DNA of 64,000 bases from SAR202 cluster bacterium bin22 (GTDB lineage Bacteria; Chloroflexota; Dehalococcoidia; Lucifugimonadales; UBA3495). Below the pieces are notes generated by a model. That model searched no databases, was not told where the DNA came from, and saw only the letters and a list, made by a program, of their open reading frames with translations. The position numbers and the translations under genes were made by a program. Positions 5,203 to 63,555 of the stretch are shown here, piece by piece; position 1 is the first letter of the stretch, and every line of letters begins with the position of its first letter. The DNA lies in contig MPMM01000001.1 of assembly GCA_002238505.1 (NCBI GenBank), forward strand, positions 496,001 through 560,000, read 5' to 3'.

Positions 5203-6597
5203 TTAATGCATGAAGGTTGCTTGCCGCATTTCAGATGCTGAAACAGTCAGGTAGGGAATCAGTTCCCGTACATCCGGCAACTCTTCCAGGTTATTTACCA
5301 TTTCAATTACTGTACCGGTCCTGCGAGGGCCCAGCACCGGTTCAAGGAGCAGTTTCACCTTGGAATTTACGTCCTCGGTGGACATGGGATTCTCCTTGGT
5401 GCCATATGCGTGGGGAGTGAAATGCTCTACAGTCGAACCGTCCTTGAGGCTGGCGATTACCTTGCCGCTTCGGGGAGCGGAGGGGTCCATTAACTCCTCA
5501 TCCGGAATCAAGGAAACTCGCTCCTTTATCGACAGGGTTGCAGGGTCCGACATTCGCTCGTAATCGTGGGTGGACAGGAAAGTTACCGCTCCGTCCATCA
5601 GGGCAACAGCCACCATGTGCTGGCAGTTAACGTCGGGCATTGAACGATTGTTGACCACGCCTGCGCCGTCCCTGGGAAGCCTGACAGTAATGGTGTCCAC
5701 ATTGTCGGTGGTAAGACCGTGCTGCCTCTGCAGGGCGAAGAAGGCGTCCAGCGCTGCCTGAATGGGGTACCCTACTGAATAGGGTTTTATGGCCGTTTCG
5801 GTAATGAAGAACCTGGCGCCCAGGCCATTCACCATTTCGTCAGGGCGGGGGTCCAGGGACAATGCCTGCAGGACATTGTGCTCTCCCTCCAGGACGTCCC
5901 AGACACCGGTCAGCCCGGCTTCTGCCATTGTGGCGGCGGTGACCCCATTGCGGGCGCCCATTCCCGCGAAGTCAAAGGCTTTTTCCACGTGTTCGGCATC
6001 CCGTACCCAGCTCCAGACGCCGGAGACCTGCTGGGCGGCATAGGAGATGGCATAGCGCATGCCGGCCTCGTCCAGCCTGGCCATGGAGGCAGCGCTTCCC
6101 ACGCTGCCCATGGTAGAACTGGTGCCTTCGGCGCTGCGGTGCCCGCCTCTGACGGCGTCCGGGTCCAGGGCAAGCAGGAAGCGGCAGCAGAGGTCGTAGC
6201 CCAACGCCACTCCCCTTAGCAGTTCCTCCCCGGAACTGCCCGTCCTTTCGGCCATAGCCAGCGCTGCCGGTACCACGGAGCATCCGGGATGGGACTTGGT
6301 TACGGGTTCGAAGTCGTCCGTCTCATCGGCGTGGCCAAACATTCCGTTTGCGAGGGCTGCGTTTACCGCCGAAGTCTTTATGTCGGTGGCCAGCACCGAC
6401 GACTCCGGGGAGCCGCCCTGCAGCCGGATATAGTTGATGGCCATTTCGCCGGGCTTGAGGCGCGCACCTGAAATAACTGCGCCCAGGGTGTCCAGAATCC
6501 GGTGCTTTCCGGCCACAGCCACTTCGGGTGGTAGCGGTCGGTCCCTGGCTTCGGCCATATAGCGTGCGAGTTGCCCGGTTATGTCTACGTTTGTCAC
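5203..6597 (-). CDS. MmgE/PrpD family protein
   Basis: The protein has 464 aa, matching the MmgE/PrpD family, whose best known member is 2-methylcitrate dehydratase. The N-terminal all-alpha domain shows the family pattern HRILDTLGAVISG, then GHADETDDFE and HPGCSVVPAALA. The GTG start at 6597 is preceded by GGAGAG at 9 nt. No prpB or prpC lies nearby, so a 2-methylcitrate role is not supported by context. Many PrpD paralogues in marine heterotrophs are of unknown substrate. It is followed by the dnaN palindrome. Confidence 0.85.
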   Translation of the reverse strand: MTNVDITGQLARYMAEARDRPLPPEVAVAGKHRILDTLGAVISGARLKPGEMAINYIRLQGGSPESSVLATDIKTSAVNAALANGMFGHADETDDFEPVTKSHPGCSVVPAALAMAERTGSSGEELLRGVALGYDLCCRFLLALDPDAVRGGHRSAEGTSSTMGSVGSAASMARLDEAGMRYAISYAAQQVSGVWSWVRDAEHVEKAFDFAGMGARNGVTAATMAEAGLTGVWDVLEGEHNVLQALSLDPRPDEMVNGLGARFFITETAIKPYSVGYPIQAALDAFFALQRQHGLTTDNVDTITVRLPRDGAGVVNNRSMPDVNCQHMVAVALMDGAVTFLSTHDYERMSDPATLSIKERVSLIPDEELMDPSAPRSGKVIASLKDGSTVEHFTPHAYGTKENPMSTEDVNSKVKLLLEPVLGPRRTGTVIEMVNNLEELPDVRELIPYLTVSASEMRQATFMH

Positions 6598-12540: not shown

Positions 12541-12951
12541 ATGGAACGCGTTACCATCAGGGAGGCTTCCCAACGACTGAGGATTCCTACGTCCATGGTG
12601 CGCGAATGCATTCGTGGTGGAGAGTTGAAGGCAATACGGGAGCCCCAGGCCGACGGGCGAATGTCCTGGGTAGTGGAACTTCCGGAGGATGGCTGGATCA
12701 GCGAGGCAACTTCCGAGGAAATGAACCGGGAGTTTTGTCCCTGGTGGTGGGGAAATATCGATAAAACGGGATACATTCACTACGTTGAGTCGCTTTCTGC
12801 CTCATCGTGGGAAGAGACGGTGCCCAGGTTCCTGTGCGGAGAGGAAGGCGACAATATCTGGGCTGCCACGGAATTGGCGGAAGAGCAGCTTTGCCTCGAG
12901 TGCCAGATGCGGGCCATTGAGCAAGGACTGCCCCAGGCCAATCCGTCATGA
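12541..12951 (+). CDS. Small protein with excisionase/MerR-like helix-turn-helix
   Basis: The 136-aa protein starts at ATG 12541 with GGAGAGGGG upstream. Residues 4-35 (TIREASQRLRIP, then VRECIRGGELKAI) fit the winged-helix DNA-binding fold of excisionase/MerR N-termini, and the following residues would form the wing. The remaining 90 residues match no family I know; they contain FCPWWWG and a C-terminal LCLECQM that could bind a metal. No integrase or phage gene is nearby, so it is more likely a regulator than a true excisionase. Target unknown. Confidence 0.65.
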   Translation: MERVTIREASQRLRIPTSMVRECIRGGELKAIREPQADGRMSWVVELPEDGWISEATSEEMNREFCPWWWGNIDKTGYIHYVESLSASSWEETVPRFLCGEEGDNIWAATELAEEQLCLECQMRAIEQGLPQANPS

Positions 12952-13077: not shown

Positions 13078-13953
13078 TCAGGGAGCCAGGAAGAAGTCCC
13101 TCAACTCCACGCAGGTCTCCTCCGGAAGTTCTTCGGCGATGTAGTGTCCTGAAGGCATTGAGTGGCCCCCCGCGTTGTTGGAGTAGTCGCTCCATACGCC
13201 CAGCACATCCTGGGTTCGTCCCACGTATCCGCGATCACTCCACAGGACCAGGTGGGGGCACGTTACCTTGTTGGCGAAGTCCTCTTCATCGTGCACCAGG
13301 TCTATGCTGGCCCCGGCCCGATAATCCTCGCATATGGCGTGGATGGTGGCGGGCTCGGTGGAGCACCGCACATATTCCGAGATGGCTTCTTCTGGAAAGA
13401 CTTCCTGCCAGTTTTCGCCACGTTGAAAACTGTGCCTGATGAAGTAGTCAGCGTCGGCTCCAATGACCCTTTCCGGAAAATCGTAGGGCTGGATCAGGAA
13501 AAACCAGTGAAAGGTGTTGGCCGCCATCTCCTTGTTTACGATGTGAAACATCCGGTGGGTGGGTATGATGTCCAGTGTTGCCAGCTTGAGCACACGTTCA
13601 GGGTTGTCCTTGGTAAGCCGGTGAGAAACCCTTGCGCCCCGGTCGTGTCCGGCCAGGTAGAAAGTAGTGAACCCCAGGCTTTCCATCGCCTCCACCTGGT
13701 CACGGGCCATGGCTCGTTTTGAGTAGGTGTAGTGTTCGGGGTCTCCGCCGGGCTTGTCACTGTCGCCATAGCCGCGCAGGTCGGCGGCTACGACGGTAAA
13801 ATCCTGGGCCAGCCTCGGAGCCACCTTGTGCCACATCACATGGGATTGAGGGTAACCGTGTAGCAACAGCAAGGGAGGCCCATTTCCTCCCACTACCAGA
13901 TTTATGGCGGCGCCGCTGGTTCCCACCTTTTTCTCCTCAAATCCTTCGAACAT
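13078..13953 (-). CDS. Alpha/beta hydrolase, fluoroacetate dehalogenase-like
   Basis: The 291-aa protein starts at ATG 13953 with AGGAGG 4 nt upstream. It has the alpha/beta hydrolase fold with HGYPQ (oxyanion region) at 32-36 and nucleophile Asp104 in GHDRGAR. From memory of the structurally studied fluoroacetate dehalogenase of Rhodopseudomonas, the matching residues are all present: Asp104, Arg105 and Arg108 (carboxylate binding), Asp128 in LDIIPT, His149-Trp150 and Tyr211 (fluoride pocket), and His270. The enzyme would hydrolyse a haloacetate to glycolate. Epoxide hydrolase is the main alternative, but the two arginines argue against it. It is divergent from a phosphotriesterase-like gene. 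Confidence 0.8.
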   Translation of the reverse strand: MFEGFEEKKVGTSGAAINLVVGGNGPPLLLLHGYPQSHVMWHKVAPRLAQDFTVVAADLRGYGDSDKPGGDPEHYTYSKRAMARDQVEAMESLGFTTFYLAGHDRGARVSHRLTKDNPERVLKLATLDIIPTHRMFHIVNKEMAANTFHWFFLIQPYDFPERVIGADADYFIRHSFQRGENWQEVFPEEAISEYVRCSTEPATIHAICEDYRAGASIDLVHDEEDFANKVTCPHLVLWSDRGYVGRTQDVLGVWSDYSNNAGGHSMPSGHYIAEELPEETCVELRDFFLAP

Positions 13954-14124: not shown

Positions 14125-15081
14125 ATGCCAACACTGCAAACTGTGCTTGGACCAATTGACGGCGCCGACCTGGGATTTACCCTGAGCCATGAACACGTGG
14201 GAACCAACGCTGCAGGTCTCCGGCACACTTACCCTGAAATCATCGATCGGGACGGGATCATCCAGCAGTCGGTTGCTGCCTTGAAGGAGGCCAGGGACGA
14301 AGCGGGAGTTCAAACCATTATCGATGTCAGCACTTTCGATCTGGGACGCGACATCGGAATGATAGCCGAAGTGGCCCGACAGAGCGGCGTCAATATAGTT
14401 GTCGCAACCGGCAACCACCTGGCGGTTCCCCGTCCCTTCGGGGAGGTGTCGCCGGACGTAATCGCCCCGATGTATGTAAGGGAGATTGAGCATGGGATCG
14501 AGGATACCGGTGTGAAGGCCGCGGTCATTAAAGTGGCCAGCGACCGGGGTGGCATTACCCAGCCACAGGAAGTGGTGTTGAGGGCGGCGGCGCGAGCCCA
14601 CCTGCAAACTGGTACGCCCATATCCACCCACACCTGGTCGCCCGACCGGGTGGGCGAGCAGCAGGTGGCTATTCTGGAGGAAGAGGGCGTGAACCTGAAT
14701 CGCGTTTACATTGGGCACAGCAACGATGACATCGACATGGACTACTTGCTGGGCCTGCTGGACAAGGGAGTGTGGCTTGGCCTGGACCGCTATCCCGGTG
14801 GACGAGTCCCTGGAACACCCGACTGGGAAGGGCGCACTGAAATCGCCAAGAAATTGATGGACGCCGGGTTTACCGAGCGCATCATGCTGTCGCACGATTA
14901 TTCGGTGCCAAAGGCCCGCCACGGAGAGCAGGTTCAGGAGGAACGCCGGAGGGCCAATCCTGACGGGTACAACTTCATACCGCGCAAGGTGCTGCCTCGC
15001 CTGAGGGAGTTGGGTGCGACGGAAGCGGACATTCACCAAATAATGGTGGTCAATCCCCGCAAGTTCTTCGCTGGAGAGTAG
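14125..15081 (+). CDS. Phosphotriesterase-family metal hydrolase
   Basis: The 318-aa protein has the binuclear-metal amidohydrolase pattern of the phosphotriesterase family: HEH at 22-24, Lys136 (the lysine that is carboxylated), His169, His198 in GHSND and Asp258 in LSHD. The family includes aryldialkylphosphatases, lactonases (PLL) and related esterases. Most environmental members are lactonases, and sequence alone does not decide. It is transcribed divergently from the fluoroacetate-dehalogenase-like gene, so the two may share a catabolic task. Confidence 0.88.
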   Translation: MPTLQTVLGPIDGADLGFTLSHEHVGTNAAGLRHTYPEIIDRDGIIQQSVAALKEARDEAGVQTIIDVSTFDLGRDIGMIAEVARQSGVNIVVATGNHLAVPRPFGEVSPDVIAPMYVREIEHGIEDTGVKAAVIKVASDRGGITQPQEVVLRAAARAHLQTGTPISTHTWSPDRVGEQQVAILEEEGVNLNRVYIGHSNDDIDMDYLLGLLDKGVWLGLDRYPGGRVPGTPDWEGRTEIAKKLMDAGFTERIMLSHDYSVPKARHGEQVQEERRRANPDGYNFIPRKVLPRLRELGATEADIHQIMVVNPRKFFAGE

Positions 15082-56609: not shown

Positions 56610-56984
56610 TTACGTCAGGGCGCGGCCGGCTAGGATGCCCGCAAATGCCGCCACCAGTCCGACGACAAGGCTGGCTGCGATGTTTACTCCCGCCCGGGCA
56701 ATTTCCCCGGTTTCCAGCAGGCGGACCGTGTCATAGCTGAGGGTTGAGAAAGTGGTGTAGCCCCCCAGCAATCCTATGGCGACCATGGCCCGAAGGTCGG
56801 CGGAGATTTCTCCTCGTTGAAGTGCCCAGGCAAGGAAGAAGCCCAGCGCGAATGACCCGGTTACGTTGACGAAGAAAGTGCCCCAGATGGTGCCGGGTCC
56901 CAACAGGCCAATGGCGGCCCGACCCACGGCCAGTCGCATTACGGATCCAGCGGCGCCTCCAACTGCTACAAGAAGGTAAATCAC
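56610..56984 (-). CDS. crcB: Fluoride exporter CrcB/Fluc
   Basis: The 124-aa protein has four helices and the Fluc signatures: GGAAGSVMRL near the start, WGTFFVNVTGSFALGF in helix 2 and GGYTTFSTLSYD in helix 3, with the phenylalanine and threonine residues lining the fluoride path. It works as an antiparallel dimer that lets fluoride leave the cell. The GTG start at 56984 has a weak ribosome-binding site. I found no fluoride riboswitch core in the 130 bp upstream. The fluoroacetate-dehalogenase-like gene at 13078 gives a possible internal source of fluoride. Confidence 0.93.
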   Translation of the reverse strand: MIYLLVAVGGAAGSVMRLAVGRAAIGLLGPGTIWGTFFVNVTGSFALGFFLAWALQRGEISADLRAMVAIGLLGGYTTFSTLSYDTVRLLETGEIARAGVNIAASLVVGLVAAFAGILAGRALT

Positions 56985-60441: not shown

Positions 60442-60645
60442 ACCGACCTCCGGATGAAATCGCTCGAAACATGAGCGGAAATGGGAACCCGGTCAGTTTA
60501 GCATTGAGCCAAAGTAACCACAAACCAGGCCTGGCCGGTCTGCAGGGCAAGGCTACCATTGGGCAGAATTGGTCCAGACATTGCTGTGATAAACTTACCG
60601 ACAACACTATTTGTGGCTCAAGAAAAGATCGAGCGAGGAACGGTT

Positions 60646-63555
60646 ATGGCTACCACCGAAGCTGCGCGCCGCATTCAGGGAAGTGAACGAGCGGAGTTGG
60701 CCGAAGAACTCAGAAAGCGAGTTTCTGGCGAGGTCCGGTTCGACCCCTTTTCCCGCGTGCTCTACAGCACCGATGCCAGCATCTACCAGATGGAACCGGT
60801 GGGGGTGGTAATCCCTCGAAACGAAGAGGATGTCCAGGCGGTGGTGGAGATAGCCCGTGATAATCGGGTGCCCGTGCTGCCCAGGGCCGGCGGAACCGGT
60901 CTGGCTGGCCAGTCGGTGAACCACGCCATCGTAATGGATTTCAGCAAATACCTGAATCAGGTAGTTGAACTGAACCGGGAGGAAAGCTGGGTAAAGGTAC
61001 AGCCAGGGATAGTTCTGGACCAGTTAAACCGGTACTTGGCCGCTCACGGACTGCAGTATGCTCCTGACCCCACCACTTCTAACCGGGCCTGCGTGGGTGG
61101 CGGTATCGGCAACAACACTTGCGGCGCCCACTCGGTAATTTATGGCAAGACCCTGGACCACATTATGGAAGTGGATGTGGTGCTGTCCGACGCAACTCGG
61201 GCCCATTTCGAGACCCTCGAGCCTCACGAACTGGAGGCCCGCTTGAGGGGAGAAGGACTGGAGTCTGATATTTACCGTGGTGTACTCCAGATAGCCCGGG
61301 AAAACCTGACAGAAATAGAGACCCGCTATCCCAAGATTATGCGCAGGGTCAGTGGATATAACCTTGACTCTTTCCTGGGTGAAGAGCCAGTCAACCTGAC
61401 CAAAATGGTAGTGGGTTCCGAGGGCACCCTGTGCGTTGTAACGGAAGCGAAGGTTAACCTGGTTCCCAGGCCGACGATGACCTGCCTGTCGGTCTTGCAT
61501 TTCAGGGATATTTTTGAGGCCAGCGAAGCCACCGTAGAGGTGTTGAAGCATGAACCTTCCTCGGTAGAAGTGTTGGACAAAATGGTGCTGGACCGCTCCC
61601 GCGAATCGATGGGGCAGTCCCGAAACCTGGCCTTCGTTCAGGGCGACCCCGGGGCCATGCTTCTGGTGGAATTCTATGGCGAGTCGGAAGCGGAACTGAC
61701 CTCCAAAATGCAGAAACTCAAGGATGACATGGAAGGGAGGCGACTGGCTTACGCCTGCGTCAACATGCTTTCCCGCGCTGACCAGGATATGGTCTGGAAT
61801 GTACGCAAAGGTGGGTTGGGGCTGTTGATGAGCATTCGTGGCGATGCCAAGCCCATACCCTTCGTTGAGGATCCTGCAGTGGACCCGGAAAAGATGGGCG
61901 ATTTTGTCCGCCGGTTTGACGAAGTGGTGCGCAACCACAACACTACCGCTGGATATTACGGCCATGCCAGCGTGGGTTGCCTGCACATTCGCCCCCTCAT
62001 TAGCTTGAAGAGCGCCGAGGGTGTCGAGAAGATGATCTCCATTGGCGAAGAGATCAGTGACCTGGTCAAGGAGTTTGGCGGCTCCATGAGCGGGGAGCAC
62101 GGCGACGGCATAGTACGCGGGGTGTGGACTGAGAAAATGTTTGGCCCCGATATCTACCAGGCATTCCGTGACCTGAAGAGCACATTTGATCCCCAGGGAA
62201 TCATGAATCCTGGCAAGATTATTGACTGCCCCCCAATGCGGGAAAACCTTCGGTATGGGTCCGAATACAATGCCGACTCCCTGATACCTATCCTGGACTT
62301 CTCCATGGACACCAACTACGCCGGCGCCGTAGAGATGTGCAATGGCATGGGCGCGTGCCGGAAGCTGACGGGTACCATGTGCCCCTCCTTCATGGCCACC
62401 CGGGATGAGGAGCATTCCACCAGGGGTCGCGCCAATCTGCTGCGGGCCGCGTTGTCTGGAAAGTTGCCCGAGGGAACCATTACTGACCAGCGTCTCTACC
62501 AGGCTATGGACCTTTGCCTGGAGTGCAAGGCCTGCAAGTCGGAGTGTGAGTCCGGCGTGGATATGGCCAAGCTCAAGTATGAATTCCTGGATAACTACTA
62601 CAAGACCAATAAACGACCCTTCCGCAACAAGTTCTTTGCCCAGATTGCCCGCTACAGCCGCATGGGCAGCAGGTTCGCCCCCCTGGCGAATCTTGGTACG
62701 TCTAATCCGGTAGGAAAGTTTCTTTCAAGCGCTATTCTGGGAGTGCATCCCAATCGTGAACTGCCCAAACTGGCAACTACGACTTTGACCCAGTGGTTCA
62801 ACTACCGCCATACGTCGCGGGTACGCGGTACGCCCAAGGGGTCTGTTGCCCTGTTTAACGACACCTTTATGAATTACAACTATCCCGAAATTGGCATCGC
62901 CGCGGTTGAGGTGCTGGAAGCGGCGGGCTACCGGGTGCAACTGGCCGAGGCCGAATGCTGCGGACGCCCCATGATATCCAAGGGAATGCTGGAAGACGCC
63001 GCCTCTTTTGCCAGGTACAACGTTGACCGCCTTTACCCCTTCGCCGACCAGGGAGTGCCCATTATTGGCTGCGAACCCAGTTGTCTCCTGACATTCCGAG
63101 ACGAATATCCGGAGTTTTGCCGCGACGAAAGGGCCGTAAAGGTTGCCGAACACAGTTTCCTGATAGACGAATTCCTGGCCATGCTGCACGAGCGGGGCGA
63201 ACTGGACCTGGAATTTACGGACCTGAAGAAGAAGGTACTGTTCCACGGCCATTGCCACCAGAAATCGCTGGTGGGCACTGCACCCTCCATGGCTGCACTG
63301 AAGCTGCCACCAGGTTACGAGGTTGAGTTGATCAACTCAGGTTGCTGCGGCATGGCCGGATCTTTCGGATTCGAAAAGGAACACTACGACATTTCAATGT
63401 CTATTGGCGAACAGGTGCTGTTTCCCACCATCCGCGAGCGGGGAGCCGACTGGGAGGTGGCCGTGATGGGCGTGTCCTGCCGCCAGCAGGTGGAGCACGG
63501 AACCGGACGTCCCGCCAGGCACCTGGTTGAGGTGCTCAGGGACGCCATTGTCTGA
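60646..63555 (+). CDS. FAD/4Fe-4S oxidoreductase fusion, YdiJ/D-2-hydroxyglutarate dehydrogenase-like
   Basis: The 969-aa protein starts at ATG 60646 (AGGAA 6 nt upstream). The first half is a GlcD-type flavoprotein: PCMH FAD domain with PRAGGTGLAGQSV, and the C-terminal FAD-oxidase part with SMSGEHGDGIVRG and FDPQGIMNPGKI. The second half is GlpC-like: a ferredoxin part with Cys groups CNGMGACRKLTGTMC and CLECKACKSECESG, then two CCG domains (ECCGRPM and GCCGMAG). This layout matches E. coli YdiJ (about 1018 aa), which oxidises D-2-hydroxyglutarate; D-lactate is the other likely substrate. Electrons would pass to the quinone pool. Confidence 0.92.
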   Translation: MATTEAARRIQGSERAELAEELRKRVSGEVRFDPFSRVLYSTDASIYQMEPVGVVIPRNEEDVQAVVEIARDNRVPVLPRAGGTGLAGQSVNHAIVMDFSKYLNQVVELNREESWVKVQPGIVLDQLNRYLAAHGLQYAPDPTTSNRACVGGGIGNNTCGAHSVIYGKTLDHIMEVDVVLSDATRAHFETLEPHELEARLRGEGLESDIYRGVLQIARENLTEIETRYPKIMRRVSGYNLDSFLGEEPVNLTKMVVGSEGTLCVVTEAKVNLVPRPTMTCLSVLHFRDIFEASEATVEVLKHEPSSVEVLDKMVLDRSRESMGQSRNLAFVQGDPGAMLLVEFYGESEAELTSKMQKLKDDMEGRRLAYACVNMLSRADQDMVWNVRKGGLGLLMSIRGDAKPIPFVEDPAVDPEKMGDFVRRFDEVVRNHNTTAGYYGHASVGCLHIRPLISLKSAEGVEKMISIGEEISDLVKEFGGSMSGEHGDGIVRGVWTEKMFGPDIYQAFRDLKSTFDPQGIMNPGKIIDCPPMRENLRYGSEYNADSLIPILDFSMDTNYAGAVEMCNGMGACRKLTGTMCPSFMATRDEEHSTRGRANLLRAALSGKLPEGTITDQRLYQAMDLCLECKACKSECESGVDMAKLKYEFLDNYYKTNKRPFRNKFFAQIARYSRMGSRFAPLANLGTSNPVGKFLSSAILGVHPNRELPKLATTTLTQWFNYRHTSRVRGTPKGSVALFNDTFMNYNYPEIGIAAVEVLEAAGYRVQLAEAECCGRPMISKGMLEDAASFARYNVDRLYPFADQGVPIIGCEPSCLLTFRDEYPEFCRDERAVKVAEHSFLIDEFLAMLHERGELDLEFTDLKKKVLFHGHCHQKSLVGTAPSMAALKLPPGYEVELINSGCCGMAGSFGFEKEHYDISMSIGEQVLFPTIRERGADWEVAVMGVSCRQQVEHGTGRPARHLVEVLRDAIV

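Follow-up and report, generated by a model that had tools for sequence, protein, structure and literature searches.

The minus-strand gene at 13078–13953 of the window (the whole stretch of DNA analysed, 64 000 nucleotides) probably codes for a member of the fluoroacetate dehalogenase (FAcD) family that dehalogenates α-halocarboxylic acids by hydrolysis. The preferred substrate would most likely be a 2-halo acid that carries chlorine or bromine or is somewhat bulkier than fluoroacetate, because a tryptophan of the acyl pocket is replaced across a lineage-specific clade in which the halide pocket is intact; some turnover of fluoroacetate in vitro is about as likely as not, but this would not be the enzyme's main role in the cell. 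Sequence, tree and structure model give good support for the family and for the likely chemistry (Asp nucleophile, Arg-held carboxylate and His/Trp/Tyr halide pocket), and the naturally altered acyl pocket is the most interesting lead.

The mechanism used here is that described for FAcDs in a review (PMC11022551). By homology, Arg105 and Arg108 would hold the substrate carboxylate, Asp104 would carry out an SN2 attack on the α-carbon and His149, Trp150 and Tyr211 would stabilize the leaving halide. His270, together with Asp128, would activate water for hydrolysis of the ester intermediate, yielding a 2-hydroxy acid, or glycolate if the substrate were a haloacetate.

Family membership and active-site residues

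The features are listed in Table 1. On the plus strand of the same interval, stop codons interrupt the frame translated. A complete set of eight fluoroacetate dehalogenase residues had been read from this open reading frame in an earlier note and was recovered in full: D104, R105, R108, D128, H149, W150, Y211 and H270 occupy exactly those positions of the protein, and in the alignment they match the residues of the characterized enzymes FA1, H-1 and RPA1163 that serve catalysis or bind the carboxylate or the halide.

Table 1. Features of the window relevant to the FAcD-family gene
Feature	Positions	Strand	Remarks
CDS, FAcD-family alpha/beta hydrolase, 291 aa	13078..13953	(-)	ATG 13953-13951, stop 13080-13078; PF00561 above cut-off
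His270 codon, triad base	13144..13146	(-)	Alignment
Tyr211 codon, third halide-pocket residue (FA1 Y212, RPA1163 Y219)	13321..13323	(-)	Alignment
Codons 175-179, Ser175, Phe176 ... Gly179 (RPA1163 Lys181, Leu182, Trp185 positions); pocket Trp missing	13417..13431	(-)	Alignment
His149-Trp150 codons, halide pocket	13504..13509	(-)	Alignment
Asp128 codon, triad acid	13570..13572	(-)	Alignment
Codons 105-108, Arg105 and Arg108, carboxylate-binding pair (RPA1163 R111, R114)	13630..13641	(-)	Alignment
Nucleophile Asp104 codon (FA1 D104, RPA1163 D110)	13642..13644	(-)	Alignment
Phosphotriesterase-family hydrolase (PF02126), divergently transcribed, context only	14125..15081	(+)	Pfam
Sole crcB-type fluoride exporter match of the genome, context only	56634..56975	(-)	~42.7 kb from FAcD gene; G000:C16:552634-552975

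The protein was assigned by Pfam to Abhydrolase_1 and matched no NCBIfam family above the cut-off of that family. The best phmmer match among PDB sequences was 3QYJ (Alr0039 from Nostoc; E = 6e-110), followed by 4NVR, 9C9F, 1Y37 (FA1), the RPA1163 entries, 8SDC (Daro3835) and the 4BAT group at E values of 1e-85 to 1e-78. An AlphaFold2 monomer model, generated with 42 sequences, had a mean pLDDT of 95.5 and a pTM of 0.94. Its top structural match was again 3QYJ (Z = 47.4, r.m.s.d. 1.2, 289 of 291 residues, 54% identity), followed by 8SDC (44%, Z = 46.5) and 9C9F (47%, Z = 46.0); the RPA1163 entries gave ∼46% identity with Z ≃ 46, and 1Y37 gave 47% with Z = 45.5. With the model aligned to 3QYJ, an Asp–His–Asp triad (D104, D128 and H270) was found in an α/β-hydrolase fold with a cap; the two carboxylate-binding arginines and, by sequence, the His–Trp–Tyr halide pocket are likewise in place. 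The protein groups with the characterized FAcDs both by a gap in phmmer E values and in the tree, in which it is nested among clades holding NOS0089, DAR3835 and RPA1163; the deep branches of this tree are weakly supported, its long branches were flagged and it contained no epoxide hydrolase. By these comparisons the gene product is a true FAcD-family dehalogenase in which the catalytic machinery is conserved; its catalysis and substrate are predicted by homology.

It is very improbable that the product is an epoxide hydrolase or esterase which merely resembles FAcDs. The first PDB chain outside the FAcD-type group was a soluble epoxide hydrolase at E = 1e-35, compared with 1e-78 or better for the FAcD-type chains, and the epoxide hydrolase reading was rejected on this gap. 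The nucleophile is Asp rather than Ser, and the Arg pair and the His–Trp halide pair are kept. The names of several relatives do point the other way: all of these enzymes share one superfamily, the PDB titles of the 4B9A series refer to a putative epoxide hydrolase and one paper refers to 3QYJ as a Nostoc EH (PMC6198070). In one family member (L093) the FAcD gene also has an EHN-domain epoxide hydrolase gene beside it. The titles of 4B9E, 4BAU and 4BB0, on the other hand, name bound MFA, which we read as monofluoroacetate.

The eight residues separate the family from its superfamily. None of the 18 other α/β-hydrolases of the same genome carries the full set (the best of them has 4/8), so the set is specific to the FAcD family, and together with the E value to 3QYJ this places the match far beyond chance. 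Within the family alignment of 61 rows (17 in the clade of the window protein and 44 others) only His149 varies among the eight: it is present in 56/61, and each of the other seven in 61/61; all eight are kept in 17/17 clade members. A set that hardly varies cannot separate defluorinators from non-defluorinators: on this alignment it marks the FAcD family, not C–F activity. The reading in the earlier note thus holds for the family and the likely chemistry, and its step from the set to C–F hydrolysis is weakly supported, given this invariance and the missing pocket tryptophan. The case cautions that an eight-residue family signature alone does not predict C–F activity.

At the His149 position Pro or Trp was found in L069, L072, L077, L078 and PDB entry 4NVR, with Trp150 and Tyr211 unchanged; these may possibly be subfamilies with other leaving groups.

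The acyl pocket and the likely substrate

The position of RPA1163 Trp185 (H-1 Trp180), which lies outside the residue set of the earlier note, is occupied by Gly179 in the window protein, and that of RPA1163 Lys181 by Ser175. A second active-site tryptophan at this position is common to five characterized FAcDs, namely FA1, H-1 (L073), RPA1163, NOS0089 and DAR3835; the wider family does not strictly require it. In RPA1163, Trp185 is reported to lie in the active-site pocket and to be restricted upon substrate binding (PMC11465415).

The window protein falls in a clade of 17 rows (bootstrap 100, SH-aLRT 99) comprising 16 members of its own taxonomic family and one of the same order. None of the 17 has Trp at the 185 position (eight Gly, three Thr, three Glu, one Ser, one Asn and one gap). 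Outside the clade Trp is present in 30 of 44 rows and absent in 14, and a minimum of six changes between Trp and other residues is required on the tree. With at least six changes and 14 outside rows without Trp, this clade is not alone in having lost it. The Ser/Gly pair at the 181 and 185 positions occurs in the window protein, L020, L021 and L031, and L022 has Ser/Ser; Ser/Gly is thus found in four of the five members of the genus and Ser/Ser in the fifth. Position 176 is Phe in 16/17 clade members versus Leu in the five characterized enzymes, and Trp182, three residues beyond Gly179, is present in 6/17. Phe176 or Trp182 could fill the space left by the missing tryptophan, so that an open pocket is a reading of the alignment.

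The closest solved relative, NOS0089 (Alr0039, 3QYJ, from Nostoc sp. PCC 7120), acts on fluoroacetate and difluoroacetate according to the review (PMC11022551). It has the same length of 291 residues and all eight residues, but differs in having Trp at the 185 position and Cys at 181. RPA1163 from Rhodopseudomonas palustris (3R3U series) also shares the eight residues; its Lys152, Lys181, Trp185 and Ile253 correspond to Asn146, Ser175, Gly179 and Tyr243 in the window protein. The eight residues are found with nearly the same numbering in FAc-DEX FA1 and in DehH1/H-1 of plasmid pUO1 (L073, 45% identity), both of which differ from the window protein in keeping the pocket tryptophan.

The residue pair itself has a counterpart in an engineered enzyme. 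PDB entry 9UE2 (Z = 46.0) is, by its title, RPA1163 Lys181Ser/Trp185Gly/His280Ala with an aryl 2-fluoropropanoic acid; it has the same residues at 181 and 185 as the natural window protein and differs in being engineered and in having its catalytic histidine removed. RPA1163 with smaller residues at 185 is reported to turn over bulky α-fluoro acids better (PMC12955510). A tentative and rather unlikely extension of the preferred reading is that this Chloroflexota family has kept the FAcD halide machinery and lost the acyl-pocket tryptophan naturally, the genus of the window reaching the residue pair that engineers made in RPA1163. It would then hold a natural dehalogenase for bulky 2-halo acids, perhaps with defluorinating activity; halogenated acids from organic matter of marine or sponge origin would be one example of such substrates. 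If bulky α-halo or α-fluoro acids were turned over, the enzyme would be a natural starting point for biocatalysts that are now made by mutating RPA1163, and halogenated acids would be substrates for uncultured Chloroflexota; if it were active on haloacetates only, it would be a routine addition to the family.

For fluoroacetate the pocket gives evidence in both directions. In growth selections of H-1 on 2-fluoropropionate Trp180 is reported to be almost always kept (PMC12955510), which counts against good C–F activity of the window protein. The Delftia acidovorans D4B fluoroacetate dehalogenase 9C9F, a relative from a separate clade of the tree, likewise lacks the tryptophan and has Arg at the 185 position. 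DeHa4 of this strain is described as defluorinating mono- and difluoroacetate (PMC13419579); if 9C9F is DeHa4, as we infer, fluoroacetate activity is possible without the tryptophan, which is then not decisive. Fluoroacetate activity of the window protein is accordingly plausible from its sequence, and the chances of hydrolysis in vitro are put at about even.

A dehalogenase for acids of the chloroacetate or bromoacetate type that is inactive on fluoroacetate is possible, if doubtful. The loss of the second pocket tryptophan would suit such an enzyme. According to the review, FA1 Trp150 is needed for C–F but not for C–Cl cleavage, so that the fold can serve either, and haloacetate dehalogenases that spare fluoroacetate are known, the example H-2 having no sequence homology with H-1 (PMC11022551). 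It is this same Trp150, tied to C–F cleavage, that is kept in 17/17 clade members, which argues against complete inactivity on fluoroacetate.

Gene neighbourhood and fluoride handling

The FAcD gene stands alone, divergent from the phosphotriesterase-family gene, between two sets of solute-binding-protein and permease genes and near a CocE/NonD hydrolase gene. The two genus members examined, L089 and L090, share this gene order, except that no phosphotriesterase gene was detected at the L090 locus; outside the genus the order breaks down. In a scan of 9 neighbours of 9 loci, out of 17 loci listed, the neighbours outside the genus varied (aminotransferase, MmgE/PrpD, MFS, epoxide hydrolase, formyl transferase, luciferase-like and NMT1). 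The idea of a common operon whose genes would identify the substrate was rejected, since synteny is confined to the genus and the scanned neighbours differ elsewhere.

The best NCBIfam match of the phosphotriesterase-family protein was organophosphate hydrolase OPH at 252.7 bits (cut-off 500); homologues lie 2.4 kb from the FAcD gene in L100 (82% identity) and 8.3 kb from it in L096 (76% identity). A 136-residue protein without a Pfam match is encoded at 12541–12951 (+), between the permease gene and the FAcD gene, and adjoins the latter in both L089 and L090. An MmgE/PrpD-family protein is encoded at 5203–6597 (−), ∼6.5 kb from the FAcD gene, and distant homologues directly adjoin the FAcD gene on the same strand in two family members, L094 (10218–11579) and L096 (7756–9063).

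A plain fluoroacetate dehalogenase with a physiological role in defluorination, as proposed in the earlier note, is distinctly unlikely, and the role itself is unsupported. All canonical residues are present, the nearest solved relative is active on fluoroacetate, and the one crcB-type exporter of the genome lies within the same window. The exporter is nevertheless ∼42.7 kb away, whereas on plasmid pUO1 crcB lies ∼1.2 kb from the dehH1-type gene L073. (That L073 is dehH1 follows from the plasmid, which is named in the review PMC11022551, and from the matching H-1 residue numbers.) A crcB match was found in 12 of the 15 genomes searched, the own genome included; it was present in 9/12 genomes with an FAcD gene and in 3/3 without an FAcD match at the cut-off used, so that crcB and FAcD show no association, and no linkage between the two was seen in any of the 15. 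Two of the three FAcD-bearing genomes without a crcB match (G016 and G025) are single-contig. No fluoride riboswitch match was obtained in the own genome or in the 64 kb window, and the equivalent of Trp185 is missing.

In favour of a defluorination role, the genome also encodes a GlcD-like candidate glycolate oxidase (481 bits, cut-off 567.9), which has a second match beside it and could use glycolate; the same GlcD model matches 11 of 14 control genomes. A 998-residue open reading frame at 60559–63555 (+) contains two GlcD-like stretches.

Selection and distribution

The ratios dN/dS to the three genus-level orthologues L020, L021 and L022 were 0.051, 0.062 and 0.039 (Nei–Gojobori counts), with dS between 0.78 and 2.0 and the L022 pair near saturation; for L031, which was saturated, no ratio was obtained. 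Values of 0.04–0.06 indicate that the FAcD gene is under purifying selection. At E ≤ 1e-40 a homologue was found in 5/5 genus members and 17/23 family members, the own genome included; one of these 17 (G017) matches at 37% only.

More widely, 24 of 251 Chloroflexota genomes (an even draw of the phylum, own included) match at E ≤ 1e-60, the tryptophan being present in many, and 214 plasmid records, haloarchaeal ones included, match at E ≤ 1e-50. With homologues this widespread, the suggestion in the earlier note that such an enzyme would extend defluorination to this lineage was overstated. An exact-phrase literature search found no paper specific to Chloroflexota FAcDs, the matches being judged off topic by title, and broader searches likewise listed nothing specific; dehalogenase genes in general have been assigned to Chloroflexi (PMC10385969).

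The nearest named records to the window protein are Chloroflexota/Dehalococcoidia MAGs. The 'RHO' bins are presumably sponge-derived. For one FAcD homologue (L058; G169:C1:659952-660791) the matched stretch was reported to contain an in-frame TGA.
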